From positions 968,313-1,032,312 of the forward strand of contig CAJNDT010005445.1 of assembly GCA_905221615.1 (NCBI GenBank): DNA of 64,000 nt. The letters are read 5' to 3'. Positions within the stretch are counted from its first letter, which is position 1. Every line of letters begins with the position of its first letter. Under the pieces are notes generated by a model. It ran no database searches, was not told where the DNA came from, and saw only the letters and a program-made list of their open reading frames with translations. Positions 2,816 through 20,302 of the stretch are shown here, in pieces. The position numbers and the translations under genes were made by a program. The DNA comes from Symbiodinium sp. CCMP2592. Lineage: Eukaryota > Sar > Dinophyceae > Suessiales > Symbiodiniaceae.

Positions 2816-3823
2816 AAGGGTTTTTGGAGCCTCGAAACCCTCCCCAAAAATTCAGAACACGTTTTGAAGGGCACACTGTAGCGGTGGAGGCTGAGGTTTG
2901 GGGCTTAAGGGTAATTACGGCATTTCTGGTGGAACAGAGGCTCGTGAATGAGAATTGGGTGTTGGTGGTGCCCAGTTTGAATATTTCGATTCGATAGGTA
3001 CTACACTCAAGAGATACGGCTGATTCGTTGAGCAGAGGTATGCATATCGAGCTCAAGCCCTGGACCCTAAATCCCCCCCCATACCCCTTAGCAGGATCTA
3101 GAACGTTGGCTTCCCTTGCGCTGCCTGTGCCGAAGAAGCGGAGCAAGTAGACGATGAACCTCTCTGCCAGGCGTGGAGTCCTCAGACAGATAGACCCTCT
3201 TAGTTTGATTCTGTGTCAGGGCTTGAGCCCATCTTCTTACAAGCATATGGGCACCAAACAAACGGCCGCCGTATTTAAATCTTCGATACCACATGTCGAT
3301 GCTGCTTCAGAACATCTCCCGTGCCTGGACGGCGTGAGCAGAGCCTAGATTTCAAGCGCAGACAAAAATTTATGCAGAGGCTGTCATATGCTTCTCCGCC
3401 CATGTATAGAGCAACCAAAACTACGAAAACTTCACCTGTGACACTGTGAGGAGGATCCACAGCCTCGGACCCTCAACGCTTGGGCTTCAGCTCGCAGTAG
3501 CAACACACCAGCGGTTGCGAAAGCCACGTGGCCTCACTTCGGGCGGATGTGACACTCCGATAGAAAACAACCTCAGGCTCCTCAACCCAGGCTTTTCGTG
3601 GGGGCAGTCGGGGTTTCGGGTTTGGGTTTGGACTTCATGACTCGTCCAGGCCGGCCACAAATGCGCGCGCTAGAAGCGAGTAGACGAATTGGGATACCAC
3701 AGGCCGGGGGAGTGGTGCATTAGTCTACTCACAGAAGCATCACCGCGAAAAATAAAAGACACACTGCCATGGATGTGTACGGTTTAGCACGTGTACTAAT
3801 ATATGCATCATAAAGGCATATGA

Positions 3824-5907: not shown

Positions 5908-7788
5908 ACGGGCTCTACATGGGCTTAGGGCTCAGAGTTTTGGGTTTAAGGGTCAGTCATGGACAGGAAGCTTGCGTTCAAGGCTAGGAGGTTTAGGCAG
6001 GAGCTGAGGCTTCGGTCTTCTGCATCTTACCGAATTCAGGTGTTTTGCGGCCTAGGGTTCAGCTTGCCGCGGTTCAACAGCCGGTTGTCGAGATTCGGAA
6101 CTTGTTCAAGGTGGCGAGTCCAAGAACTTCTGAAACGACCTTTCGGGGGATGGGGGCCTTCGTGCTGAAGTCGCAGAGTTGTGGGATGGAGGAAAGCTGT
6201 CTAATACCACTAACGCCATTATTGCCATCTAGCAAGGGCGCCCAAATAGTTCGGACAGTACATTAAAGTCAAGAACCAACTGTGACGAGAAATCCCTCAA
6301 CCCTTGCATCCCGTGCTAAACCCTGAACCCTGAACCCCACACCAATGCCCTGAGTGCCTGAGACCCCCCGCCCAAACCCCCACAGCCTCAAACACCAAAA
6401 GCCCCACGCTATCTAAGAAACGCTTGAGCCAGGAGACGCAAGAGCCTCAAGCTCTGTACTTAACTTAACAACGCTAAACTCCGAACTCTTGTGCTCTAAA
6501 TCTCCAATAATTAACAGCCCTACAACCCGCAAAGACTGAAAGGCCTAAAATTCCAAAAAGCCTGAAAGCCGCCCTTGCTTGCAAAAAGGCCTCGGGCTGG
6601 CGCGGACGGCTCCCTAAACGCCAGGCCTGTCTCAAAGGGTTGCTGTTGAAGGTTTAAGGCTTCTTTGAAAGGGATCTATATAAGGGTTTCTATCAGACAA
6701 GAGCTACTAGAATCTTACTAGAATAGTATTACCAAGTGTTCTTATCCATGTATAAGGCCCCGTACTTTTCTTTTGCTTGGGAGGGGAGTTACTACAAATC
6801 AAAGGTTGCTGCCAAAGGGCAGGGGCTGGGGCGAAGGAGCTTGCTATTTATTATGAGAGTAATTATGAGAAGGTGGCTGTTGACAACTGCGGGTTCTTAA
6901 TAGGATAGGTATGGGGTCTCAGGTTGCAACATGAAGACCCCCTCAACCCGGATGCCGGAAGCAACCATAACGAGGACCAGCCGGTGCAGGGCTTGCGGTG
7001 GATCTGCAAACATGTAAACAAATCTATATTTCACGACCAGCCGTGGCCTTTGCGGTCCGCTCCCACTCCACTTGACTGAAACACTTCACGGCATAGGATT
7101 TAGCGGCTAGCGTAGTTCGCAGAGGGCATCTCAGGAATTTATGGTCTTCAAAAGAAGTCATGTCGTAGGCTGGTTTGGAGTCCGGGGGCTTCTACTGAGC
7201 TCCGACTTGCAATGAGACCCTAATTCTATATATCTATAACTAGAGCTCTGCATAGCGCGCTGAGCCGTCCTGGGCTTGCAGGGTACGGGAAAACTACCAG
7301 GACCAAACGATGATTCACCGAAACCCAAGTTTTCCAAACACCAACCCACCATCGCCATCGCTTTGTGCCCTGAGTCCACAGCTCCCAATCCTAAAGTCAA
7401 TATAAGAGGGTTTTCAAGAGCTTACATCTGTTGGAGGCTTTCTTCTTGTAGGTTACTGTAGACACTAAACCCCGCATAAATAGACCCTAGACCTCGACCC
7501 CTTAGAATTCGAAGGCCCCGACGTTACCTTGCTGTTTCAGGGAGAAACGACCGGCCTCATGCAAAAAACGCATCAAGGTCGGATCCTGGCGCAGGGAAAC
7601 GGTTTAGAGTTAAGGAGGCTTAGGATTCAGGAGTTTAGGGTCAGGGTCGAAGGAATCTCGGCTTAGGGTCCAGCATAAGCAGTACAAATTAGGGAACCCT
7701 AGGGAACGAAATACCATCACGAAAGTCTTCGGGCTGGTCTATTGGTCAGGTTTTGGGGTGTCGGGGGCCTTTGGCTTTTAGGGATCAC
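5908..7788. other. Non-coding DNA left of the retrotransposon
   Basis: Scattered CCCTAAA-like motifs and short chance frames only. ATCAC at 7784-7788 is the left copy of the retrotransposon target duplication. Confidence 0.55.
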
Positions 7789-7976
7789 TGCGTGTGAGTT
7801 GAGATCCCTAAGTACAGGCAGATGCACTTGTCCGACGGAAGGCTGTTTTGGCTGAGGAAAATTTCGAAGCGTTCGATGGAAGTTCTCGGGTGATTCAGGG
7901 CATTGGTCCTTAACATTTGAGGATTACCTTTCAAGGTTTGTGTTAACTTAGTTGGTTTGTCCCTTTATTTCACGTA
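7789..7976 (+). repeat. 5' LTR
   Basis: 188 bp starting tgcgtg and ending cacgta, a short imperfect terminal inverted repeat (5 of 6 positions). It matches 19977-20164 base for base by eye. The end is TA rather than the usual CA. It is short for an LTR and presumably holds promoter and RNA-processing signals, none of which I can name. Confidence 0.95.
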
Positions 7977-7996
7977 GGTTATCAGCCGTAAGCTCT
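7977..7996 (+). promoter_or_regulatory. Candidate tRNA primer-binding site
   Basis: The bases directly after the 5' LTR read ggttatcagccgtaagct. Reverse transcription of such elements starts from a tRNA paired here. The run partly resembles the initiator-Met 3'-end complement (tggtatcagagc) with one extra T. It could instead pair with an anticodon-loop region (complement ctgataacc), as copia-type elements that use half-tRNAs do. Position supports the call; primer identity is open. Confidence 0.45.
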
Positions 7997-8062
7997 AAGC
8001 TGGGTTCTTAGTGGGACTAACGTAGTACTACTCTATTAAGGGGTGACCGGATTCTCGGAGTG

Positions 8063-9448
8063 ATGGACCCGATGACTCGCAAGCGTCGAGGAGCTGTGAC
8101 TGGAGAATCTGAGGACACCAGTATTTCTCGTGAGAGTGCGTATCAAGCAGCCTTGAGTCAGGTAGAGGCCGGAGGGGTCTCTAGTACAGGGGGCAGTGGT
8201 CTCCCTGTAAGTGGCGTCAGACAGGGTGAGGCTTCGCCTGGAACGTTGGAATCAGGAGAAGCAATGGGTGGGGAAGGTTTGACCTATCCTACGCCCAACC
8301 CGTTTTACAGTGATCATGCCAAGGCGGAAATTGAGTTGCTTCGTAGCAGGCCATCGACATTGGATGCAGAGGCACTCCGTCTAGGTGCTGAGTACAACGA
8401 GTCTGCTCTCGGTGACACAAGCTTGACGGGAGGCCTGGGTGAGCCTAATTATGCCGAGGCGTTCGGAACGCTCGGATCTTCTCGGGATGTTCCCAGGGTT
8501 GCCCGAATTGAGTCTTCGAGTGAGGCAGCAAGGGTTGCTGAAGGCCGCCCAGAGGAGCCTGTTAAGGAGCATCTGGCGAGGGCTGTACCTCTAGAAGTCG
8601 AAGCTGTGACTGAGGGTGAGAGATCCAATCCTGGTGGGAAAGGGGGACCGATTGAGGGTTCCAGTGCTGCCGTAGGGAGCGCGGTAGCCGATGACCCGGA
8701 GCTAATCCCCGCGGAGAATGATCGCCTAACTAGGGTTGAGACGCTGTTGACTCAGGTCTTAGAGGAGAATCGGTTGTTGAAGAGGCAGCTGCAAGCGGAG
8801 TCTAGTTCCAGTTGGCATAGTACTCGTACTCCGGGAGAGATTCCAGCTTCGCCGGCGTCGTTCGGTCTCGGCCGACAGTTCCCGGAGATGATGTCTTCGG
8901 CGTTGCTTGGTGTACAGGCTGTAGGACCGAGTGTTCCTCATGATTTCCCGGGCTCCTTGAGAGAATGGCCGAGTGGTGAACTGGTTACGAGTCAGGAATC
9001 GTCGCAAGCTCTAGCGAGGGCTAGGTTCCACCAGGCCCTCCCGGTTCATCCTTACGGAATCCCTACTGGTTTAGAGGGGTTTGGAGCGATGGGTATGAGT
9101 GATCGGATTGCTGCGGGGATGTGGCCGGTTTCGGGGGATTTGAGAGGGTCGGTAAACCCAAGGCCTCCTCCACTTCCGATTAAGCAGCCTGAAGGTGTGG
9201 GGTACGAGGTTTCAGAAGTTGTAGAGCCGACTCAGACGCTGAGACAGTTTGCAAGTGCAGCTTTGCAGGGAAGCCAGCCCACTGGAGATGGGAACGATGT
9301 AGGTTATCATACTCCTAGGTCGGGGTGTGGTGCTAGGGGGTTTGACGCGGAGGGGTATCCACTCTCCCCGGGTGGTTCAAGTATCAGACCTCCAGCAATC
9401 CCTCCTCCAGCTGTGGTTTCACCGCACCGCGTGTGTCGCCTCGTGTAG
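8063..9448 (+). CDS. Copia ORF1, N-terminal Gag-like region
   Basis: A 461-residue frame starting at the ATG at 8063 (the frame is open one codon upstream, a GTG). It begins MDPMTRKRRGAV. The sequence is rich in Gly, Ser, Glu and Pro and mostly looks disordered. At about residues 218-247 is a leucine-heptad segment (TRVETLLTQVLEENRLLKRQ) expected to form a coiled coil, as in Gag assembly regions. The C-terminal 100 residues are proline-rich. It ends at a TAG at 9446 and overlaps the ORF2 frame, which is open from 9346; ORF2 lies in the -1 frame. Since ORF2 begins with the rest of Gag, ORF1 is probably the amino end of the same polyprotein, joined by frameshifting or separated by a recent indel. 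No catalytic motif is visible. Confidence 0.8.
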   Translation: MDPMTRKRRGAVTGESEDTSISRESAYQAALSQVEAGGVSSTGGSGLPVSGVRQGEASPGTLESGEAMGGEGLTYPTPNPFYSDHAKAEIELLRSRPSTLDAEALRLGAEYNESALGDTSLTGGLGEPNYAEAFGTLGSSRDVPRVARIESSSEAARVAEGRPEEPVKEHLARAVPLEVEAVTEGERSNPGGKGGPIEGSSAAVGSAVADDPELIPAENDRLTRVETLLTQVLEENRLLKRQLQAESSSSWHSTRTPGEIPASPASFGLGRQFPEMMSSALLGVQAVGPSVPHDFPGSLREWPSGELVTSQESSQALARARFHQALPVHPYGIPTGLEGFGAMGMSDRIAAGMWPVSGDLRGSVNPRPPPLPIKQPEGVGYEVSEVVEPTQTLRQFASAALQGSQPTGDGNDVGYHTPRSGCGARGFDAEGYPLSPGGSSIRPPAIPPPAVVSPHRVCRLV

Positions 9449-12400
9449 GGCCGAGTGTTGCGGGTGGGCCTTCTGGTCCACCAAGAGCTCCGGGCCTTCC
9501 GGGAGATCCTTTAGGGAGAGGTTTGATTGGGGATGGTTCGGGGTTCCCTTTTGCTTCGGGTTGTTCGGGGCTGCCAGGGAGTCAGGGTGCCGTTGAAAGG
9601 CCAGAGGAGCCTGCTAAGTACATTTCGGACCTTCCTAAACTAGCCCAAACGGATCTCGCGAGTAGTGCGGTCGTATGTGGAAATTGGTTAGCTCAAGTTA
9701 GGCAAGTGCTTGTGGGGCTTTCTCCTAGCGCTAGCGTATGGTGGCAGGGAGTAGAAGGTCCGGCCACATCTGCATACCGGCGCTGGTTAGTGGCAGACCC
9801 GCTAGGGCGTCTAGGAATCGACCCGTCGTCTGTAGTCGGAGAGTTCGATAGGCACTTGTATGGGAGGGTAGAAAGTCGGTCGGTGTCTTTGCTGTTGGCA
9901 GCGGTTCCGCAGTCGATACGGGATGATGTGGTAACCAACCGTTGGTTAAGTAGTGCGTCCATTTTGTTTAGGGTGCTCTGTTTGTTTCAACCCGGAGGTT
10001 CTAGTGAACGATCACATCTCCTATCCCAATTGGTGAGTCCTGGGGTTTGTGGTTCGTTTACCGAGGCTATCAAGGGGTTGAGGAAGTGGCAACAAGGGTT
10101 GCAGCGGGCGGGGGAAATCCACGCGACTTTACCCGACGCGTCGCTTCTACTTAGGGGAATAGATGGAGCAACCTCGGCATTGTTGACGGCGCACCCCATG
10201 ATAGGATTCCGAGTGAACGCGTTTAGACATCAGCTAGCGATCGATTACAACCCGACTGTGGCTAACGTTGTGCAACTAGTTCGACTAATCCAAGCGGAGT
10301 GCGAAGCTGCAGCGATTACTTCGGAAGGGACCCCGGATAAGAGGGCTAGGACGGCCGCTGTTTCTACCCCTAAGGAGCCTCCTCCTACTAAGGCCGTTCC
10401 TCCTTCTCCACCGAGTCAAGGGGCTGGGGTTGCGGCTAGTAATGCAAAGGGTGATCCTAAAGGGTTTGGTAAAGGGAAGGCCACGGATGGGAGTGCCCAA
10501 CTCTGCTTCAAGTTCTCAGATGCAACAGGTTGCAAGTTTGGGGATGCGTGCTCGTTTAAGCATGATCGGGCAAAGGCTCGCAAAGAGGGTAGATGTCTTG
10601 CGTGTGGTCAGGCAGGTCATATTCGTCCGGATTGCAAACTCGTTGCTCCTGAGAACCGGCAAGTTTTGGCAGACTCTGGGACCACTCCTGAGGGTTCACC
10701 TAAAGCAGGATCTCCTAAGGGTAAGGGAAGGGCTGCTAAAGCGAAGGCAGCAGCTCAGGCCAAGGGGGTTTCTGAAGAACCCACTGGCAGTTCCGAAGCA
10801 GCGAAGGCTGCTTCAGCTTCGACTCCGACTGAGGGCGGACAGGAGGGTCTGATCGCAGAAGCGGCTAAGCTCCTGAAGACCGTATCTTTGAAGGCTTTGA
10901 GGCTAGGTTCTGATGTTGAGGTTGATACCTCGTGGTTGCTAAGTGCCATTGCGGGACCTTCCGATTTAGCCTACGCACTGGTAGACAGTGGAGCAACCAA
11001 TGCGCTTCGGCCAGCGTATGACGGAGAGTTGAGCCTCGGAAAGCCCATTAAGGTTGACTTAGCTAGTGGCGTAGCTGAACTGAGGGTGAACGAGTGCGGC
11101 ACTCTTCTGCATGCTGGTCCTTGCCAGGTAATTTTACCTGCGGGGTATCTGGTAGAGCTTGGTTTTACTATCTCCTGGAGGAAGAGGGGGTGTAAGATTA
11201 GGCATCCTGGTAGGGGTACCCTGGAGGTTACGGTCGTTAAGGGTTGCCCCTTGATACCTCGCGAACTCGGTCTAGAGATTCTTGAAGAGTACGAAACCTT
11301 GAAGTGTAGCCGAGGAGGTCTGAAGAAGATTGGGCCTTTGCAAGCCGAACGTGGGTTAAAGCCCGGCGAAGTCCGGTCGTGGCTTAGGGATAAGCTTCGG
11401 AGTAGGGATGGTGGCTTGTCCAGAGAAGAGCAGTTTACTTTCCTTACGGGGCTGTTTCCTAGGGTACCGTTGGGTCTTCTAGAGCAGGTTTGTGTCGCTG
11501 ATACAGGAACCGGACTTGTAGACTATCGCCATTTGCCGTGGAACAGGAGGCTGCGTCGGACAGTATCCCGGGCGAAGCCGGGGACAGTCATGATTAATTT
11601 GTCTCCTAAGCAGCCTGGTTGGAAGGGATCGGGTTGTGTGGTTTCGGTTGAGCCATCTGAAAAGGGGATAGAGTCTGATTCAGTGTTTCGGCAGCTTCTG
11701 GATTGGGCGAGTTCTGGGGCTATTGGCGGTGTGATAAGAAGCGAAGAGGACGCATCTGGGCGACCCGTAGTTTGCCACGATCAGGACTATTGGAAGGGAT
11801 TAGAGGATACAGAGGTTGGTAGCACCTTGTCACGGGGGTCAGTTCGGATCTTCAGGGCTGTTCTGTTGTTTGCGGTAGCTCAGGCGATTTCGGACGGTCG
11901 GAAGCACCGAGAGGATCTGCATGAACCAGAGGGTGACGAGGGTTTTGATCCTGAGGATGTTCCCCCTACTGGGTTACGGGATCCCGCGGAGCTAGCCAAG
12001 TGGGCACTAGAGAGGGCGGCGGTTAGACTTAAGAAGAAGGATCGGTCCGGCCGTGACACGGGAACATCAGATCCATGCTCTGTGTTCTTAGTTCTCGAAA
12101 GGCCTCGGGATCCAGCGGGTCGTTGGAGATCAGCTGAAATCCCGTGGTTTTGGGCACCGGACGAGATTGAAGGGTTTCGTGAAGCTTATGGGTTGAGTGA
12201 CGTTGTGTTTGATCAGAGCTGTCTTGGTTTGCCTGTGTTGGATACAACTTCTCTTCTTACCTCGTCCTGGCGCCTCTTTGAAGCTCTGCACGCGATCAGG
12301 GCTACCGAAGAAATGAAGACTTTCCTGCGGGGTCTTAAGGACTTGAGGCTTCTTGCTGGCGATTATGGAAGGTCGGTTTGGGGCCCTGGTCTGTGCCGCG

Positions 12401-15400
12401 TGGTGCAAGGTGCATGGGCTCAGTGGAAGACTGAGATTTCTCAGACCGCAGACATCAGTGAGCGTCGTGTCCTTGTAGCTAAGCTTTCGGAAGCCGAGGC
12501 TCAGGCTAGGCATGAGGCACAGGACCACGTTCCATATCGTAAAGGGTGCCCGGTGTGTATTGCTGGGCAAGGCCGACAAAGAGCTCACTGGCGTAGCGGA
12601 TTTCCGGACTTGCATTCTCTTAGTGTAGATATTGCAGGGCCGTTTGTTAATGGCCAGTCCTACAATGTCGAGGCTAGCGGCAGAGACAAAGGAAAGGGCT
12701 ATCGTTACATGCTGGCGTGCACTTACGCGGTCCCCCTTAAGTTTAGTCCCTCTGTAGGCGAGTTGGACGATCTGGCTGAGTATGAGCCTTCGGAATGCGA
12801 ACAGTTGATTCCTGTTGACGGCACGGAAGTGAACTCTTCGGTTGTGGCTGAATCAGGAACCGCTCAGGGTCTACTTGATGATCTCTGGGATTTACCGGAA
12901 CCGGGGGAGGAAGCTGTGAAGGCGGTGACTCACCGGGTTCGACATAAGAGGCCGGAGGATTTGGACGAGGAAGCGGAAGCAGGGCCTGCTACTGTACCTG
13001 AGAAGAGCAAACATCTAACTCTGTTTATTGGGGTGCCCCTTAGGACTAAGAAGAATAAGGAGGTGTATCCTCAGATTCAGGGTGTTATTAATAGACTTGA
13101 AGCGGCAGGCTACCCAGTCCATAGGTATCATGCGGATCGCGCAAAGGAGCTGCGATCAGACATGCTCATTCGGTGGTTAAAGGAGAGAGGAATCCATGGG
13201 TCGTGGACGGCTGGTGAAAGCCCGGCAGGCAATAGAGCGGAGTTGGCAGTACAGGGTTTGAAGGGCTGTGTTCGTAAGCTTTTGAGGGCCTCAGGGCTTT
13301 CCAAACAATTCTGGCCCTTGGCTTTGTTGCATGCGTCAACACGACTGTGGATTCAATTCAATGAACGACTTGGGATTGTGCAGCCTAACTTGTTGCCTTT
13401 TGGGATTCGCCTTATGGCACGCAAGCGCGTGCGTACGGGCTACGACGCGCAATGGGAATCTAAGACGATTGAGGGCGTCTATGTTGGGCATGCTCCGAGT
13501 ACGCCCGGAGGACATCTGGTGTTGGTACTGTCGGATGATGGCCATAAGGTGTTGCTCACGAATACCGTGTATCCGTTGCGGGCGGCTTCTGACAATCCTG
13601 TAAAACCTAAGTATCGACTCACCGGGAAGCATTCTTCGCGCTCCCCGCATTTTGTCGTTCGGGTTGTAGCTGCGCATGAAGTACCGGTTGTAATTTCCGA
13701 CCAGGATGGGGCCATGCTTGGACCCAAGCCTGGGGGGGAGTCCTCTTTAGATTCTTTAGAGTTAGGGGATTTTGATGCCTGTTTTGAAAGCGATCTTGAA
13801 GGTCTAGGTGTATCCCTGGCTCCTGAGGAATTTCCTTCTTCCCCGTTTGACGAGGTTCTCCGGGAGAGCTGTTTCGAAGGCAGCGGGTTGTTTGAACCGG
13901 TGTTGAAATGTCATGGTCCGGATGAAGTTTCGGTCCAAAGGATCCAAGTTCCGCAACTCGATGAAGAGTCTTCTTTATGGATTCGGGGGAGACGGGAGGC
14001 TGAGGATTTTTCCGATGAAACGTGCTTGGAAGTATTGACGAAGGGTCTAGGATTATTGCCAGGGGCAAGAAGGAGGATGATTAGATCCGAGGGGAAGGCT
14101 GTGTTGTTGGGTCTGTATGGTTTGGGGGGTTTCCATGGTATCTCTAGGGCAACTGGAACTTATGAGGAGGTCACACGGTACTTAAACGGGTACCTGGGTA
14201 CTTTGGTTCCGGGGCACGCCTGGGCTGCGTTGTATGTTTCGAAGGATACTAAGGTTCCCCTACACAAGGACCTGAGAAATGCCACCCAGTTCGCGACGGC
14301 CGTTAAGGCCCTTGGTAGCTTTGTCGGTGGAGGTTTGTGGATTGAAGATGAGAACGACACGGGGCCGATCTGTAAGCAGTTACCGGATGGGACTTGGCGC
14401 GCTGGAAGGGTCTATGATGTCCGAAGGGAAGCTCTTCAGTTCCAAGGGGATAAATGGCACACTTCTGAGCACTGGGAGGGAGGCTCTAGGTGGGTGATTT
14501 CGGCTTTTACCCCTAGAGATTTCGGAAGGACCTCTGAAGAGGATTGGGAAGCCCTGAGAGACCTCGGGTTTCCGGTTGACAACGTTTTGGGTGGGCTTCA
14601 GGGGGTCTCTGAAGTGTTGAAGAAGGCCGACGGAGCCGACCAGAAGGTTTGGGAGCCTTCCATTGACCAGGAGGTTCAGTGGGAAGTGGGTTTACCGCAG
14701 CCTCTACTGGAGGATGAGCATCGGCAGGCTTTCGTGGTATGGCATGAAAGGGTCGCACGGTTGAGTAGGATGTTTACCTCGGATTTGTGTGATGCTGTGG
14801 ATATCTCGGAAGATGTTGGTGGAATCGCGGATCAATTGCGGGAGGTTGAGGTGTTAGCTCAGTGGTTGGAGTGTGGCTTAGATGACTGGGTCGAGCAAGG
14901 GGATTGTTATGGAGCGCTGAGGGCTCTTAATGTGGAAATCCCGTTGAACGATGGAGCCCCTACCACTGATGTGTTTCTGCAAACTCGTACCGTTAGCCTC
15001 GTAGAAGCAAGAACTGAGTTGGGATTGTGGAAGGAGCCTGCCCTGGATGAAGTGACGAGCTTGGAAACGACCAATCAAGCTGTTGATAGGGTCAAGGCCG
15101 CCCTAGTGGATCGGTGGATTGAGCAGGGTTACACCGTAATCCAGTTACCCGGCAAGGCAGTCCTTACGAGAAAGAGTGGAACGGGAAAGCGCCGCCTGCG
15201 GGCGGTGTGTTGCGGAAACTATCTCCCTCCTGAGAAGCTAGGTTTATCAAAGGATGACGTTTATGCTTCCGGGGCTGAGGCAGTGACATTGCGGGTAGCC
15301 CTGGGTTTCGCATCGATTTTTTCATCCTGGACCGGGATAACGATAGACATCAAATCAGCTTTTCTGTATGCTCCGATAGGTACCCGATCAAAGGAGAAGG

Positions 15401-18400
15401 AGGAACGCATTATCGTTAAGCCTCCGGCGTTGTTGGTTGAGTTAGGAGTGCTCGAAGCCAGTGACCGTTGGCATGTGCGAAAGGCGTTGTATGGGTTACC
15501 CACGTCACCTAGGGACTGGGGTGATTACCGGGATAAGGAGTTTAGGATCCTTACTATCCTCTGTGAAGGGGTCACCTATGGGCTGTTTCAATCGAAGTCT
15601 GATGAGTCCTTGTGGCTGGTTCAGCCTGTAGGTGAACAAGGGAAGGGGCCGATAGCGGGGTTGTTGGTTGTGTACGTAGATGATCTAGCTTTCTTCGCCT
15701 CTGCGAGCCTGTGCCAATGCTTCATCGACCAGGTTCAGAAGAAGTGGAAAACTTCCCCTCCCAATTGGTTTGGTGACGAGCCAGTTACTTTCTGTGGTGC
15801 TGAGGTGACCCGTTCAGCCCGAGGTTACCGGCTTACTCAGGTGTCTTACTTGAAGGAGCTGCTGCAGAGGTATAATATTGAGGGTACCGCGGCATCGCCC
15901 ATAACGAAGTGGACGGAACCGCTGGAACAAGGAGTTCCCGATGCTGGATTGATCAGAGAGGCGCAGGGCATTACAGGAGCGTTATTGTGGATCAGTACCC
16001 GATCGAGACCAGACATTGCTTACGCTGTTTCGCGTATGGGACAGCAGGCGACTAAGGATCCGGAGTTGAGTATTGCTATCGGCAGGCAAGTGCTTCAGTA
16101 CCTCAGCTCCACCTTGACGTTTGGGATTGAATATTTGCATAAGTCAGGACCTTATTTTTCGGATCATGGTCAGTTGGCTGTACCTCGACAGAATAACGTT
16201 TTGGAAGTGTACTCAGATGCTTCTCACTCGCCGTGTGGCGGGCGCTCGGTACAGTGCTGCATTATTGGGTGGCGTGGGTCGCCGCTGGCGTGGGAAAGCG
16301 CCAGACAAGGGTTCACGACCCTGAGCTCCGCAGAGGCGGAGCTCGTGAGCATGATCCATTCGGTTCAATTGGGGGAATCCATCCAACCATTACTTCAGGA
16401 ACTTCTTTCGGATGACTGTGTTATTTCACTTTTAGCCGATAACGCCGCCGCTATCCGTTCTTTCGAAACGGCGCCAGCCGGCTGGCGTAACCGCCACCTG
16501 AGGATGAGGGCGCAAGCAGGCCGAGAACGAATAGAGAACAACGTTTTGAAGGTCAATCACCTCGCTGGTGTGCACCAGGCGGCGGACATTGGCACGAAGC
16601 CGCTAACCCGATCCAGGTTGCTCTACTTACTTGACCTCATCAATGTGCGAGACCAGCCAGCTTCACCAGAAACAATTAAGGCCGCGAGGGTACTGAGTCG
16701 TCTCTCTCGGGATGCTCAGGTATGTAAGGTGACGCCTGAAGCCGTAGCGGGTTTGGCGCTGTTAGTTGCTCTTCCGAAAGTTTTCGGGCAGCCTATTGGG
16801 AATGCGACGATTGGGCAGCGCTGGCTTCACTGGTGTGTTGGTGTTCTGGTGTGCGTGGTTTTAGGCCTAGGAGTCTGGTGGTTCTTCCGTAAAACAACAG
16901 GGGGCTTCGAGGAGCAGGCTGTTATAACGACTAGCGGTGATGAAAGTCGGCCGCCGAGCGTAGCCGAGGCAACTGTTGTTAACGGGGGTTGTGAGTCAGG
17001 CCCTTCCGGTTCAGAGGACCAGGATTCCGAGGCTGCTGAGGAGGGTGAGGATTGGACCCAAGCTGAAGCTAATCTTAGAGCCATTGAAGTTCGTACTGGG
17101 TTGACCTTTATTCAGCGGGCCCGTTTGCGACAACAGCTCAGTAAGGGAGGGGTTGTTGACGTGCCGGTATTTCAGCAGCGGTATGGCCCCCTCCCCAGTT
17201 GGTTGACTGGAGGGGATTCTGGGTTAACACAGGTCAGGGTTACTCAGCGGTCCGGTTTGGATACTTTGGTATCGGTTCTCACGATAGGCGGTGGGCGCTT
17301 TGTGGAATTCCTAGGGGTTCCAAGACCCGAGTGGACGCGATTAAGGTGCAGTTGCAACCGGTTGAGAGCCCATGCTGTGTTGGTGATCGCAGCGGGAATT
17401 CGGGATACAGGGCGTGAGGAAGGTATGCCGAGGGATCCCGAGTTTCGAGCTGAATTTCGGTTTGTGCAGACGGACACGGGACACCAGTGGATGCCGGTGC
17501 AGGTTCAGGGACCAGAGCTTCGGGCGGAGTTTCCACAGGGCAGTCCGACAGGTTCAAGATCCACGCTCCGAGAAGCTTTTCCGGCTCACAGCGGGTTCGA
17601 GTCTCTTGGGGAAGTCGCTATGCCGCAGCCGTCTAGTGCCGCATCAGAGGTTGCAGTGCAGCAGCAGTCTAGTGCCGCATCAGAGGTTGCAGTGCCGCAG
17701 TCTAGTGCCGCATCAGAGTTTGCAGTGCCGCAGCAGTCTAGTGCCGCATCAGAGGTTGCAGTGCCGCAGTCTAGTGCCGCATCAGAGTTTGCAGTGCAGC
17801 AGCAGTCTAGTGCCGTATCAGAGGTTGCAGTGCCGCAAGCTAGTGTAGCCCATGGGTTTACCCGATCTTTTGAGGTTCCAACGCCTGAGGTGCAGATTGG
17901 GGGGAGTTCTAGTAGCGCTGCTCCATTTGTTCCGTTAGAGAGTGGGGAACAGGAAGTCGGACTTGGAGGAAGCTCCGGAAGCCATGGATTTAATAGCCAC
18001 TGGAACCTGTCAGTCTGCTATGAGGATTCCTTTCAGTGCGGGGATGATTTCGATGAGTTCCCTTATCTTGGAAGTTGGAGCAGGGTTCACTTTCTTGTGA
18101 GGTTGTTCTCCGAAGTAGGCGTGTTGATCCTTGAGTGCTTAGGTGATGGGGCTGATGGATGGTTTCAACTTCGAACGGTGTCTAACTATCAGCTGTATGC
18201 GTTAGTTGATGCTGTGTATCAAGAACTGAAGAAGGGTCCCAGGGCACTAGAGTTTGATTGTCCTCAGTGGTTTGGTTTAGTCGATGAGTGGGTTGCCCAG
18301 GGTGGTGGTTTCGGGACTAGGGTCAGGGAGTGCCCGGCTGGACCTCTGTTTCCTTATGTTGCCTGGGCGCCTCCTTACGTCATTCACTATCTCTGGCGTT

Positions 18401-19569
18401 TGTTTTCCCAGCATGGGTTCGTACTTCTCACGTTTCTGGGAACCCAGGCTAGGGACCACGAGAGTTTGAGAGCTACTGCAAGAGCGTATCGTGTGCATGT
18501 GACGACGGCCATGATCTTGTGGTTGGAAGCCACGGGGCCGCGTCGCATAGCTGATGGTGTTGTCACGTTTGCCGCTGCAGAAGCTTATATGAACACTGGA
18601 CAGCGAGTGTATCCATTTGCGGTCGACGATAGCGATGATGAGGAAATTGATGAGCGTCCCCATAGGGTAGTTCCGGCTCCTTTGTGGGTTCCCCAGGTCC
18701 TTGATGTAGGGGTTGAGAGTTCGTCCGACGAGTCGGAGCAAACGTCGACTGCAGAACCTTCTTCGACTGAGTGTGAGCCAGTTTTTTCGGAGCCTGGGCG
18801 AGAGCGAGAAGAGTTCCCTGCCCCGGCAGCTACGCGTTACGCAGCCTTTGAAGGGTTTTTAAGGGTGTTCTATGTAGATGACTACTTTGATGTTCCCCTT
18901 CAGGGTTGGTCGGAGACCGAGGTGCAGGCCATTGTGTGGGGTATTGAGTCTGGGGATTGGGCTGATTGGAGACAGGCTCTAGAGGATCGGGGGAGTGACC
19001 GAACTGAGGTTCCTGAAGGGACGGGATATAGGAGTGACTCTTGGCGAGGGTTCTTTCAGGGGCCGCTAGGGGTTTGGGTTCGGCTAGTGATCTTTTGGGT
19101 CATGTTGGTTCAGAGTGCCCGAGCGGAACTGGTTGAGTTAACTGAAGATCCAGGCTGTGAAGGCCCCTCCTTAACTGCCCAACTGCAAATTCGCCCGAAG
19201 ACCGATGAGCTTGTGATCGCTGGTGAGTTAGGGTCCGATTGCGACGGGACATCTTTTTCGGTGCTTTGTTGCTGCTGTATTGCGATTGGAGCCTGGGAAA
19301 TCATTCGATTCTGGTTGTTGCGGTTGTGCCGTAGCAACCGGATTTTTAGGGAAGCTGAAAGCCAGACGAACTCCTTTGGGATTGTGCCGATGCCACTTGG
19401 GAATGAAGTCCCTCACCGGGCGCGCATCTTATTTTGCTTATGGCGTGCCGGTTTCAAGATTGATGCCGAAGGCTACCCGGAGAAGATTCAGGCAGAGTTC
19501 CACTCTTTGATTGGTTCGTATCTAGTTCGGATTGAAGCTGGGGATGTTTCTTCGTCGGACTCTGACTGA
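9346..19569 (+). CDS. Copia ORF2: Gag-Pol polyprotein with extra domains
   Basis: The frame is open from 9346; the first start-like codon is a GTG at 9433, so residue numbers here count from 9433 (3378 residues, stop 19567-19569). In order: Gag core about 60-290; CCCH finger C358-H377; CCHC knuckle C388-C401; protease DSGA at 518; methyltransferase-like region about 700-960; HHCC integrase zinc site H1027, H1032, C1039, C1042; integrase core D1066, D1235, E1270; oxygenase-like domain about 1554-1695; reverse transcriptase with D1972 and YVDD (D2083, D2084); RNase H D2262, E2301, D2336; then an extension of about 1040 residues with a hydrophobic segment near 2464-2486, an 11-12 residue repeat, and two hydrophobic segments near the end. 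All expected catalytic residues are present. No ATG lies near the start, so translation presumably depends on ORF1. Confidence 0.93.
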   Translation, partial: RGGVSTLPGWFKYQTSSNPSSSCGFTAPRVSPRVGPSVAGGPSGPPRAPGLPGDPLGRGLIGDGSGFPFASGCSGLPGSQGAVERPEEPAKYISDLPKLAQTDLASSAVVCGNWLAQVRQVLVGLSPSASVWWQGVEGPATSAYRRWLVADPLGRLGIDPSSVVGEFDRHLYGRVESRSVSLLLAAVPQSIRDDVVTNRWLSSASILFRVLCLFQPGGSSERSHLLSQLVSPGVCGSFTEAIKGLRKWQQGLQRAGEIHATLPDASLLLRGIDGATSALLTAHPMIGFRVNAFRHQLAIDYNPTVANVVQLVRLIQAECEAAAITSEGTPDKRARTAAVSTPKEPPPTKAVPPSPPSQGAGVAASNAKGDPKGFGKGKATDGSAQLCFKFSDATGCKFGDACSFKHDRAKARKEGRCLACGQAGHIRPDCKLVAPENRQVLADSGTTPEGSPKAGSPKGKGRAAKAKAAAQAKGVSEEPTGSSEAAKAASASTPTEGGQEGLIAEAAKLLKTVSLKALRLGSDVEVDTSWLLSAIAGPSDLAYALVDSGATNALRPAYDGELSLGKPIKVDLASGVAELRVNECGTLLHAGPCQVILPAGYLVELGFTISWRKRGCKIRHPGRGTLEVTVVKGCPLIPRELGLEILEEYETLKCSRGGLKKIGPLQAERGLKPGEVRSWLRDKLRSRDGGLSREEQFTFLTGLFPRVPLGLLEQVCVADTGTGLVDYRHLPWNRRLRRTVSRAKPGTVMINLSPKQPGWKGSGCVVSVEPSEKGIESDSVFRQLLDWASSGAIGGVIRSEEDASGRPVVCHDQDYWKGLEDTEVGSTLSRGSVRIFRAVLLFAVAQAISDGRKHREDLHEPEGDEGFDPEDVPPTGLRDPAELAKWALERAAVRLKKKDRSGRDTGTSDPCSVFLVLERPRDPAGRWRSAEIPWFWAPDEIEGFREAYGLSDVVFDQSCLGLPVLDTTSLLTSSWRLFEALHAIRATEEMKTFLRGLKDLRLLAGDYGRSVWGPGLCRVVQGAWAQWKTEISQTADISERRVLVAKLSEAEAQARHEAQDHVPYRKGCPVCIAGQGRQRAHWRSGFPDLHSLSVDIAGPFVNGQSYNVEASGRDKGKGYRYMLACTYAVPLKFSPSVGELDDLAEYEPSECEQLIPVDGTEVNSSVVAESGTAQGLLDDLWDLPEPGEEAVKAVTHRVRHKRPEDLDEEAEAGPATVPEKSKHLTLFIGVPLRTKKNKEVYPQIQGVINRLEAAGYPVHRYHADRAKELRSDMLIRWLKERGIHGSWTAGESPAGNRAELAVQGLKGCVRKLLRASGLSKQFWPLALLHASTRLWIQFNERLGIVQPNLLPFGIRLMARKRVRTGYDAQWESKTIEGVYVGHAPSTPGGHLVLVLSDDGHKVLLTNTVYPLRAASDNPVKPKYRLTGKHSSRSPHFVVRVVAAHEVPVVISDQDGAMLGPKPGGESSLDSLELGDFDACFESDLEGLGVSLAPEEFPSSPFDEVLRESCFEGSGLFEPVLKCHGPDEVSVQRIQVPQLDEESSLWIRGRREAEDFSDETCLEVLTKGLGLLPGARRRMIRSEGKAVLLGLYGLGGFHGISRATGTYEEVTRYLNGYLGTLVPGHAWAALYVSKDTKVPLHKDLRNATQFATAVKALGSFVGGGLWIEDENDTGPICKQLPDGTWRAGRVYDVRREALQFQGDKWHTSEHWEGGSRWVISAFTPRDFGRTSEEDWEALRDLGFPVDNVLGGLQGVSEVLKKADGADQKVWEPSIDQEVQWEVGLPQPLLEDEHRQAFVVWHERVARLSRMFTSDLCDAVDISEDVGGIADQLREVEVLAQWLECGLDDWVEQGDCYGALRALNVEIPLNDGAPTTDVFLQTRTVSLVEARTELGLWKEPALDEVTSLETTNQAVDRVKAALVDRWIEQGYTVIQLPGKAVLTRKSGTGKRRLRAVCCGNYLPPEKLGLSKDDVYASGAEAVTLRVALGFASIFSSWTGITIDIKSAFLYAPIGTRSKEKEERIIVKPPALLVELGVLEASDRWHVRKALYGLPTSPRDWGDYRDKEFRILTILCEGVTYGLFQSKSDESLWLVQPVGEQGKGPIAGLLVVYVDDLAFFASASLCQCFIDQVQKKWKTSPPNWFGDEPVTFCGAEVTRSARGYRLTQVSYLKELLQRYNIEGTAASPITKWTEPLEQGVPDAGLIREAQGITGALLWISTRSRPDIAYAVSRMGQQATKDPELSIAIGRQVLQYLSSTLTFGIEYLHKSGPYFSDHGQLAVPRQNNVLEVYSDASHSPCGGRSVQCCIIGWRGSPLAWESARQGFTTLSSAEAELVSMIHSVQLGESIQPLLQELLSDDCVISLLADNAAAIRSFETAPAGWRNRHLRMRAQAGRERIENNVLKVNHLAGVHQAADIGTKPLTRSRLLYLLDLINVRDQPASPETIKAARVLSRLSRDAQVCKVTPEAVAGLALLVALPKVFGQPIGNATIGQRWLHWCVGVLVCVVLGLGVWWFFRKTTGGFEEQAVITTSGDESRPPSVAEATVVNGGCESGPSGSEDQDSEAAEEGEDWTQAEANLRAIEVRTGLTFIQRARLRQQLSKGGVVDVPVFQQRYGPLPSWLTGGDSGLTQVRVTQRSGLDTLVSVLTIGGGRFVEFLGVPRPEWTRLRCSCNRLRAHAVLVIAAGIRDTGREEGMPRDPEFRAEFRFVQTDTGHQWMPVQVQGPELRAEFPQGSPTGSRSTLREAFPAHSGFESLGEVAMPQPSSAASEVAVQQQSSAASEVAVPQSSAASEFAVPQQSSAASEVAVPQSSAASEFAVQQQSSAVSEVAVPQASVAHGFTRSFEVPTPEVQIGGSSSSAAPFVPLESGEQEVGLGGSSGSHGFNSHWNLSVCYEDSFQCGDDFDEFPYLGSWSRVHFLVRLFSEVGVLILECLGDGADGWFQLRTVSNYQLYALVDAVYQELKKGPRALEFDCPQWFGLVDEWVAQGGGFGTRVRECPAGPLFPYVAWAPPYVIHYLWRLFSQHGFVLLTFLGTQARDHESLRATARAYRVHVTTAMILWLEATGPRRIADGVVTFAAAEAYMNTGQRVYPFAVDDSDDEEIDERPHRVVPAPLWVPQVLDVGVESSSDESEQTSTAEPSSTECEPVFSEPGREREEFPAPAATRYAAFEGFLRVFYVDDYFDVPLQGWSETEVQAIVWGIESGDWADWRQALEDRGSDRTEVPEGTGYRSDSWRGFFQGPLGVWVRLVIFWVMLVQSARAELVELTEDPGCEGPSLTAQLQIRPKTDELVIAGELGSDCDGTSFSVLCCCCIAIGAWEIIRFWLLRLCRSNRIFREAESQTNSFGIVPMPLGNEVPHRARILFCLWRAGFKIDAEGYPEKIQAEFHSLIGSYLVRIEAGDVSSSDSD
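9367..9373 (+). promoter_or_regulatory. Candidate -1 ribosomal slippery heptamer
   Basis: Within the ORF1/ORF2 overlap the ORF1 frame reads C CCG GGT, which fits the X XXY YYZ pattern for simultaneous -1 slippage and would carry ribosomes into the ORF2 frame. G-rich YYY triplets are unusual for eukaryotic sites, so this is only a candidate. A one-base change elsewhere in the overlap could explain the frame offset equally well. Confidence 0.3.
9613..10320 (+). other. Gag core region of ORF2
   Basis: Residues about 60-295. A helix-rich, Trp/Leu-containing segment (with VVTNRWLSSASILFRVL and LRKWQQGLQRAGEIHATLP) lies directly before the zinc fingers, the place and composition expected of a copia Gag (UBN2/retrotrans-gag type). 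The assignment is by position and general pattern; no diagnostic residue defines it. Confidence 0.6.
10504..10635 (+). other. Double zinc-finger module (CCCH plus CCHC) in Gag
   Basis: C358-x8-C-x5-C-x3-H377 is a CCCH finger of the RNA-binding type; C388-x2-C-x4-H-x4-C401 is a retroviral zinc knuckle. Copia Gag proteins normally have only the CCHC knuckle. The pair presumably binds genomic RNA during packaging. A Lys/Ala/Gly-rich linker follows, to about residue 460. Confidence 0.85.
10936..11275 (+). other. Aspartic protease domain
   Basis: LVDSGATNALRP with the catalytic Asp at residue 518 matches the D-S/T-G-A active-site motif of retroelement proteases, followed by beta-rich sequence. 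It would cut the polyprotein into its parts. It works as a dimer, so one Asp motif per chain is expected. Confidence 0.85.
11530..12315 (+). other. Cytosine-methyltransferase-like (degenerate) domain between protease and integrase
   Basis: Residues about 700-960. VMINLSP, then a segment ending GAIGGVI, later LVLERPRDP (E889) and VVFDQSCLG (D927). The spacing and motifs recall methyltransferase-like inserts that I associate with dinoflagellate retroelements, in which an E-H/R-P triplet stands where C5-methyltransferases have ENV. The SAM-binding FxGxG motif and the PC catalytic motif are not evident, so if it is homologous it is probably inactive or repurposed. Alternatives are an unrelated spacer domain. 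The assignment is from remembered family patterns. Confidence 0.4.
12511..13420 (+). other. Integrase (zinc site and DDE core) with internal insert
   Basis: HHCC site H1027-x4-H1032-x6-C1039-x2-C1042, then D1066 in LSVDIAGPF, D1235 in HADRAKELRSD and E1270 in AGNRAELAVQGL. D and E are 35 apart, as expected of the retroviral/copia integrase core. The gap between the first two Asp residues is about 169, roughly 100 more than usual; the extra is an acidic, disordered-looking insert (residues about 1105-1200). The enzyme inserts the cDNA; the 5-bp target duplication fits. Confidence 0.88.
14092..14517 (+). other. 2-oxoglutarate/Fe(II) dioxygenase-like domain between integrase and reverse transcriptase
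   Basis: Residues about 1554-1695. The signature of the double-stranded beta-helix oxygenases is visible: VPLHKDLRN gives H1611-x-D1613 as iron ligands, KWHTSEHWEGG gives the distal His (H1676, or H1680), and SRWVISAFTPR gives R1685, nine residues after H1676, the usual place for the 2-oxoglutarate-binding Arg. Between them GGGLWIED and a hydrophobic strand pattern fit the fold. The family includes AlkB, prolyl hydroxylases and the TET/JBP thymine and methylcytosine oxidases. Substrate cannot be read from sequence; DNA is an attractive guess for a retroelement. No such domain belongs to canonical copia Pol. Confidence 0.7.
15010..15800 (+). other. Reverse transcriptase (copia RVT_2 type)
   Basis: Segment IEQGYTVIQLPGKAVLTRK, then RLRAVCCGNY, TIDIKSAFLYAPI (catalytic D1972), KALYGLPTSPRDW and LLVVYVDDLAFFA (catalytic D2083, D2084). 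Each is a hallmark of copia reverse transcriptase; all three catalytic aspartates are present. Confidence 0.96.
15960..16620 (+). other. Connection and RNase H domain
   Basis: The copia connection motif (RSRPDIAYAVSRMGQ) is followed by VYSDASHSPCGGRS (D2262), TTLSSAEAELVSM (E2301), LLADNAAAIRSF (D2336) and HLAGVHQAADIGTKPLTR. These are the standard copia RNase H motifs. It degrades the RNA strand during cDNA synthesis. Confidence 0.95.
16621..19566 (+). other. C-terminal extension of Pol with hydrophobic segments (unknown function)
   Basis: About 980 residues after RNase H, where most copia elements stop. A 20-residue hydrophobic stretch (CVGVLVCVVLGLGVWWFF, near 16834-16890) is followed by an acidic linker, a repeat tract at 17611-17850, a Trp/Tyr-rich globular-looking stretch (about 17980-18960), and two more hydrophobic segments (LVIFWVMLV near 19080-19115; VLCCCCIAIGAWEIIRFWLL near 19260-19320). 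The pattern could be a membrane or envelope-like product cleaved from the polyprotein, or transduced host sequence. I recognise no family. No stop codons interrupt it, which in so young an insertion shows only that the parent copy was open. Confidence 0.6.
17611..17850 (+). repeat. In-frame 33-36 bp tandem repeat (SSAASEVAVPQ)
   Basis: Seven units of SSAASE(V/F)AV(P/Q)Q(Q) encoded by cagtctagtgccgcatcaga-type DNA, alternating 33 and 36 bases. Several units are identical at DNA level, so the array is young. It lies in the C-terminal extension of ORF2. Confidence 0.9.
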
Positions 19570-19942
19570 ATCCTCTAGAACAAGGACTTCGAACGGGTAG
19601 GCCACAGCTAGTAGCAGCTTTGAGTCAGCGGGAGAGAGGCAAGGGGTTGCAACCCTCTAGATCTGTAAGTTCTAGGCTTTTATAGCAACCAGTAGCGTTG
19701 TTGGGGTTATTAGCTCACCTCCTCCTTGCTAAAGGTTAGTGTTTGAAAAAAGGGGATGCCGTGAAAGAGCTCGTGTTCGAATTACCCTTTAAAAGGGCTC
19801 GCCAGAAAGAGTGAGTTCGGAATTGAGCTTGGCTTTTGTCCCCCTGAAGCTGAAGAGCGGACAGCAAGGTGCATGGAACAGATGGGATCTCACGAGTGGT
19901 GATTTCATAGCCGCGACGCTGTTTTCCAGAGGAAGCTTCCGA

Positions 19943-19976
19943 TCACTCTTCACTTGGAGTGAAGAGTGAGGGGGAG
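19943..19976 (+). promoter_or_regulatory. Hairpin and polypurine tract before the 3' LTR
   Basis: TCACTCTTCAC (19943-19953) pairs perfectly with GTGAAGAGTGA (19959-19969) across a 5-base loop. The purine run gaagagtgagggggag (19961-19976, one T) abuts the 3' LTR and is the expected primer site for second-strand DNA synthesis; the hairpin's right arm overlaps it. Confidence 0.65.
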
Positions 19977-20164
19977 TGCGTGTGAGTTGAGATCCCTAAG
20001 TACAGGCAGATGCACTTGTCCGACGGAAGGCTGTTTTGGCTGAGGAAAATTTCGAAGCGTTCGATGGAAGTTCTCGGGTGATTCAGGGCATTGGTCCTTA
20101 ACATTTGAGGATTACCTTTCAAGGTTTGTGTTAACTTAGTTGGTTTGTCCCTTTATTTCACGTA
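19977..20164 (+). repeat. 3' LTR
   Basis: Identical by eye to 7789-7976; followed by the right target-duplication copy ATCAC at 20165-20169. Confidence 0.95.
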
Positions 20165-20302
20165 ATCACCCCTTAGGAATACCAGTTTTCATGCTCTAAA
20201 GAGCCTGAAGGCATTTTGTCATTTTGCGCTTCAATCTCACCCCCCCGAACCCCAAAGCCCTAAGAGCTAAACCGTAGCCGTAGAGAGGGTTCTGGGTCCA
20301 TG

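Follow-up and report, generated by a model that had tools for sequence, protein, structure and literature searches.

A predicted TET/JBP-like 2-oxoglutarate/Fe(II) dioxygenase domain in the polyprotein of a Copia retrotransposon of Symbiodinium

We analyzed a 64,000-nucleotide stretch of the genome of Symbiodinium sp. CCMP2592 (contig CAJNDT010005445.1; hereafter the window), which contains a Copia long terminal repeat (LTR) retrotransposon whose 3378-residue pol-type open reading frame (ORF) encodes a 2-oxoglutarate (2OG)/Fe(II) dioxygenase-like domain between integrase (IN) and reverse transcriptase (RT). The domain has a predicted 2OG oxygenase fold, an Fe(II)/2OG site that is invariant in the rows examined, and profile kinship with the Pfam family Tet_JBP; it is under purifying selection and has been inherited together with IN and RT. 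It is probably a TET/JBP-type dioxygenase, of catalytically competent appearance, that acts on bases as proposed below. Coordinates are positions in the window and residue numbers refer to the pol ORF; genomic matches come from the 1.098-Gb assembly to which the window belongs.

Predicted fold and active site

An AlphaFold2 model is confident over residues ~1511–1715 (window ~13963–14577) and matches solved 2OG oxygenases, with a 2OG-type double-stranded beta-helix in the predicted structure. A first-pass annotation of the sequence had proposed a 2OG/Fe(II) oxygenase-like domain at 14092–14517 (residues 1554–1695); the predicted structure and the conserved His, Asp, His and Arg residues support the domain, although the extent given was too short. 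In a fold comparison set beforehand as a test, the best match in the Protein Data Bank (PDB) is NgTET1 bound to DNA (Z 10.2; 13% identity over the aligned part), followed by AlkB (Z 9.5), and 49 of the 50 structure matches listed are nucleic-acid oxygenases by title (TET, AlkB/ALKBH, FTO). TET2 entries are absent from the VIA-align structure list, an absence that excludes nothing. These titles, together with a sequence link specific to Tet_JBP (below), argue against a protein hydroxylase, similar to prolyl hydroxylases and with capsid or a host protein as substrate, and we consider such an activity highly improbable.

Conservation was assessed in an alignment of 57 domain rows, comprising seven proteins (the window and six protein matches) and 50 of 131 scored genomic matches, which were drawn from 4720 first-look candidates; the 50 are the 30 best-scoring matches and another 20 chosen for spread. 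The window is present twice among the 57 rows, and 39 rows are left once those at least 90% alike are removed. The first-pass annotation had singled out H1611-x-D1613, the segment GGGLWIED (residues 1632–1639) and a distal histidine at either 1676 or 1680, all of which are found in the ORF, and an arginine numbered 1685 that is actually R1686. Conservation in related elements, which it had named as a check, was observed: H1611, D1613, H1676 and R1686 are retained in all 57 rows, whereas H1680 is kept in only 11 and is ruled out as a metal ligand. N1616 is conserved in 56 rows (Y in the exception, L030), and the asparagine of the HxDxxN motif is present in all 13 of a set of more distant domains. 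The HxD...H Fe(II) triad and downstream 2OG-binding Arg or Lys by which TET/JBP enzymes are recognized are thus both found.

Between residues 1530 and 1714, 14 of 185 columns are invariant among the 57 rows, and exactly four of the 30 His, Asp and Arg residues are invariant, these being the predicted metal and 2OG ligands; the active-site pattern therefore exceeds chance, and we rejected a chance motif on this ground. The 131 scored matches lie at separate places in the assembly, and relatives are found in other records, including those of Symbiodinium. With the invariant site and predicted fold, these observations already contradict a chance motif or an assembly artefact, for which we found no supporting point and whose probability is practically nil.

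Searches for related proteins gave ten matches, three of them in Symbiodinium. Four of the ten (P0009–P0012) are not part of the 57-row count; in the matched stretch of P0012, the arginine, the WH motif and HRD..N are all retained. Shorter relatives were sought with a domain set described below (A2), which gave five proteins; by reading, P0013–P0016 contain parts of the domain, and P0017 begins at the domain's end and continues into RT.

Relationship to TET/JBP and AlkB enzymes

We compared three sets of domains: A2, with 20 members (16 window-lineage rows and L047–L050); A4, with the 13 more distant (sibling) domains, including L047–L050, which the window domain had picked up and which A2 also contains; and A5, the window lineage without L047–L050. 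Tet_JBP is the sole 2OG family appearing among A2 members; it matches two of the 20, L048 and L050, both divergent, with E of 0.019 and 0.044. Searched against the genome, the Tet_JBP model gave 148 matches at E <= 10, all below the cut-off (best E 2.2e-4). Following these matches revealed additional classes of element, and 11 of their 13 domains match Tet_JBP, the best with E 4.1e-7, still short of the cut-off. In a PDB sequence search at E <= 10 the A4 profile matches only TET2 (E 4.5e-4) and CcTet (E 0.72–0.76), and the A5 and A4 profiles align with each other at 100% probability (E 2.3e-48, 198 columns).

A second connection to this family runs through a bridge set of 10 rows (P0018-type proteins with L051 and L056); Pfam PF12851 is precomputed on four of 12 sibling proteins (P0018, P0019, P0021 and P0026), all four of them in the bridge set. 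A5 aligns with the bridge set at 98.3% (E 2.2e-14, 177 columns), compared with at most 0.6% for 20 column shuffles and 0.2% for the reversed alignment. A joint profile of both sets matches TET2 (E 0.0086) and CcTet (E 1.1); its other two matches, at E 0.54 and 2.3, are unrelated. A PDB sequence search gave no matches with the window domain and two unrelated ones with A2. PHROGs and NCBIfam gave no family whose name denotes a 2OG oxygenase (many PHROGs are nameless), none of 11 pattern matches in viral contigs was confirmed, and no phage with a sibling domain was found.

An alternative is that the domain is an AlkB-type N-methyl demethylase acting on RNA or single-stranded DNA, shielding the transcript or complementary DNA (cDNA) from N6-methyladenosine (m6A) or N1-methyladenosine (m1A) marks or from damage, as in an orchid Gypsy element. 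An active AlkB m6A demethylase within an LTR element is indeed reported in the available text of PMC9289625. AlkB also trails NgTET1 by only 0.7 Z in the structure comparison, and the 2OG fold with HxD...H expected of AlkB proteins is present in the predicted model. However, RxxxxxR, which we take to be the AlkB signature, is missing from all 57 rows, the R+6 column being F in 50 and Y in seven, and AlkB membership was rejected for this reason. Pfam lists no AlkB family for the 20 A2 or 13 A4 members (four rows shared), in contrast to Tet_JBP (2/20 and 11/13), and HxDxxN lines up with the TET2 segment HRDLHN. The asparagine of this motif, presumably a base contact in TET2, is not universal in the TET/JBP family, as CcTet is without it. 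The first-pass annotation had named AlkB and TET/JBP alike as members of the wider family; the sequence evidence favours TET/JBP, and an AlkB-type activity seems unlikely.

Inheritance, selection and placement within Pol

All 30 longer loci (L001–L030) have IN, the domain and RT on a single strand and in this order, in keeping with the position between IN and RT described initially. The three parts share one frame in 23 of these and do not in the remaining seven, and they are in one frame in all three of the more distant Copia loci L063–L065. The domain is stop-free in 127 of the 131 scored matches. The domain copies form groups of near-identical members as well as lineages that are clearly apart, and near-identical pairs have too few differences to inform on selection, with the proportion of nonsynonymous differences (pN) equal to or above that of synonymous differences (pS) in a few, such as L011/L014. 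Of 1225 pairs, 1198 have pN >= 0.2, and every one of these has a pN lower than its pS; the closest divergent pairs have pN of 0.17–0.30 versus pS of 0.70–0.83. The synonymous rate (dS) lies between 0.05 and 1.0 in only one pair, for which the ratio of nonsynonymous to synonymous rates (dN/dS) is 0.47. Across 18 lineages domain distances correlate with those of RT (r 0.913) and IN (r 0.916), with r 0.847 between IN and RT, and the 16 window-lineage rows group together in the domain tree (support 99/99), in which deeper forks are weak. Since the domain is under purifying selection, mostly shares frame and order with its neighbours, and has distances tracking those of IN and RT, we conclude that these Copia lineages have long carried it and that selection has kept it.

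Chromoviruses carry a chromodomain at the integrase C terminus, a place comparable to that of the domain here, and a non-catalytic domain could likewise be retained as a DNA-binding or targeting module. Its location directly after integrase, in one frame (23/30 and 3/3 loci), and its strong co-inheritance with IN are in line with this. A domain that only binds would not need all four ligands, though, and it is precisely these predicted contacts to metal and 2OG that never vary among the 57 rows, so that we regard a pure binding module as distinctly improbable.

TET/JBP-like domains were also seen elsewhere. By reading, the domain of L068 lies upstream of integrase, before a GAG_pre-integrase/integrase-like stretch, and that of L070 lies 3' of a protease-like stretch, so it seems that such domains occupy varied places within polyproteins. 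L066, L067 and L069 are ORFs of 271–355 residues with the same kind of domain, and may represent host genes or pieces of some other element. L051–L062 are ORFs of ~826–1,285 residues, many near-identical, with a domain resembling Tet_JBP, which in L051 falls short of the Pfam cut-off (E 3.5e-6). In the four that were read (L051, L055, L056 and L058) it is followed by a stretch, 'EVFSGTA...APPCGTASR', reminiscent of C5-methyltransferase motifs; Pfam detected no methyltransferase in L051 or L056.

Possible role and relation to known systems

Copia polyproteins are cut by the element's own protease, and IN and RT work in the particle and the preintegration complex. TET/JBP enzymes oxidize the methyl groups of 5-methylcytosine (5mC) or thymine. 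We propose that the domain would remain joined to IN or RT after processing and travel in the particle together with the cDNA, where it could oxidize thymine to 5-hydroxymethyluracil (5hmU) or 5mC to 5-hydroxymethylcytosine. The substrate might be the element's own DNA or cDNA, or the insertion site, and the oxidation may help a new copy to escape silencing by the host or may steer that silencing elsewhere.

The domain differs from characterized TET/JBP dioxygenases (NgTET1, TET2, CcTet, JBP) in being embedded in a retroelement polyprotein, in its low identity to NgTET1, and in falling below Pfam Tet_JBP detection. TET/JBP genes are known from DNA transposons and Helitrons of fungi; the available text of PMC12730594 reports none found in a retrotransposon. 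Those elements are similar in being mobile and having a TET/JBP-type oxygenase, with several such families in one genome, but are DNA transposons or Helitrons, whereas here the domain lies in frame between IN and RT of Copia. Ty3/Gypsy elements of orchids have an ORF for an AlkB 2OG-dependent dioxygenase with m6A RNA demethylase activity in vitro (PMC9289625). They too are LTR retrotransposons with a 2OG/Fe(II) oxygenase, although of the AlkB family, in an additional ORF, and in 25-kb plant elements of the Gypsy type; in the screen described in that source, all 15 extra domains were in Gypsy-type elements and none in Copia-type. Symbiodinium retrotransposons are reported to carry DNA methyltransferases (DNMT), with abundant Copia elements lacking any DNMT domain (PMC5890265). 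These are likewise dinoflagellate retroelements with a DNA-modifying enzyme, but the enzyme is a cytosine methyltransferase, and the words TET, oxygenase and hydroxymethyl do not occur in the main text of that source as available. Searches of the open-access literature in PubMed Central listed no dinoflagellate retroelement with a TET/JBP or 2OG domain. A TET/JBP-type oxygenase as mobile-element cargo is known, and the carrier, the place within Pol and the host group are new. The intact-looking domain in a recently inserted element suggests that mobile elements can carry their own DNA-base-modifying enzyme.

According to the available text of PMC11071213, 5hmU replaces 12–68% of thymines in the dinoflagellates assayed and is enriched on most repeats in Breviolum, where accessibility is most depleted on Copia and Maverick elements; its authors propose modulation of repeats as the possible main function of 5hmU, and that text does not credit the writing of 5hmU to any TET, JBP or oxygenase. 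The Breviolum maps would fit element-borne oxidation and could also mean that the host marks repeats; any link of the window domain to 5hmU draws on these published maps of another species. That retroelement TET/JBP-type enzymes are a main source of 5hmU, of oxidized 5mC, or of both, in dinoflagellate DNA is a rather unlikely proposition. If true, the unusual base would be written at least partly by mobile elements, each Copia copy bringing the enzyme along with its integration machinery. Domain-bearing Copia elements are numerous, the window copy is freshly inserted, and with a candidate enzyme borne by an element, where 5hmU comes from and what it does become directly testable questions.

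Several observations weigh against a base-oxidizing TET/JBP-type enzyme. The window domain itself has no direct match among Pfam, NCBIfam or PDB sequence models, none of the 16 window-lineage rows scanned matches Tet_JBP, and NgTET1 and AlkB, being less than 1 Z apart, are tied under the rule of the structure comparison tool. Rows were collected by homology, so decayed domains are under-sampled; three of the 13 more distant domains have lysine in place of the arginine, as read from the alignment; and in their matched stretches the annotated Symbiodinium proteins P0009 and P0010 are without part of the domain, including ligand positions, which may reflect gene-model error or decay. In Breviolum 5hmU enrichment is strongest on Maverick and not on Copia (PMC11071213, available text).

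Organization of the element

A single LTR retrotransposon occupies window positions 7789–20164 (12,376 bp) between 5-bp ATCAC duplications. The LTRs and target-site duplication, the position of integrase upstream of RVT_2, and the same order in relatives identify it as Ty1/Copia, and its two identical LTRs indicate recent insertion. Its features are listed in Table 1.

Table 1. Features of the Copia element in window coordinates.
Feature	Position	Strand	Remarks
Target-site duplication, left copy, ATCAC	7784..7788	none	
5' LTR, 188 bp, TGCGTG...CACGTA	7789..7976	+	No difference from 3' LTR
ORF, 462 residues, 5' of pol	8060..9448	+	No Pfam family above cut-off
pol-type ORF, 3378 residues	9433..19569	+	No internal stops
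CCHC zinc-knuckle-like motif CLACGQAGHIRPDC	10594..10635	+	By reading; Pfam zf-CCHC E 0.2, below cut-off
Aspartic protease-like motif LVDSGATNAL	10978..11007	+	By reading; assigned by motif
Integrase region: partial HxxxxxxCxxC, D1066, D1235, E1270	12526..13242	+	By reading; assigned by motif; region conserved in relatives
2OG-Fe(II) oxygenase domain, TET/JBP-like, residues ~1511–1715	13963..14577	+	AlphaFold2 model, PDB comparison, conservation, profile link to Tet_JBP
H1611-K-D1613, predicted Fe(II) ligands	14263..14271	+	57/57 rows
N1616 of HxDxxN, aligned to N of TET2 HRDLHN	14278..14280	+	56/57 rows; TET2 alignment
H1676, predicted third Fe(II) ligand	14458..14460	+	57/57 rows
R1686, predicted 2OG carboxylate ligand	14488..14490	+	57/57 rows
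Reverse transcriptase RVT_2, residues 1939–2153	15247..15891	+	Pfam PF07727, 32.1 bits vs cut-off 31.6; YVDD at 15673
RNase H-like motifs SDASHSP, SSAEAEL	16213..16344	+	By reading
Stretch with purine-rich tract directly 5' of 3' LTR	19951..19976	+	
3' LTR, 188 bp	19977..20164	+	Sequence as 5' LTR
Target-site duplication, right copy, ATCAC	20165..20169	none	

Just 5' of the CCHC-like knuckle, window 10498–10572 resembles a CCCH zinc finger (zf-CCCH_DUS3L E 0.012, under the cut-off). About 900 pol residues 3' of RNase H (window 16800–19569) are assigned to no Pfam family. Two strongly hydrophobic stretches within this part of pol, at residues 2465–2485 and 3276–3296, are possibly membrane segments, and window 17589–17845 consists of 33/36-base units in tandem, in frame in pol, that encode repeats of the SSAASE-VAVPQ type.
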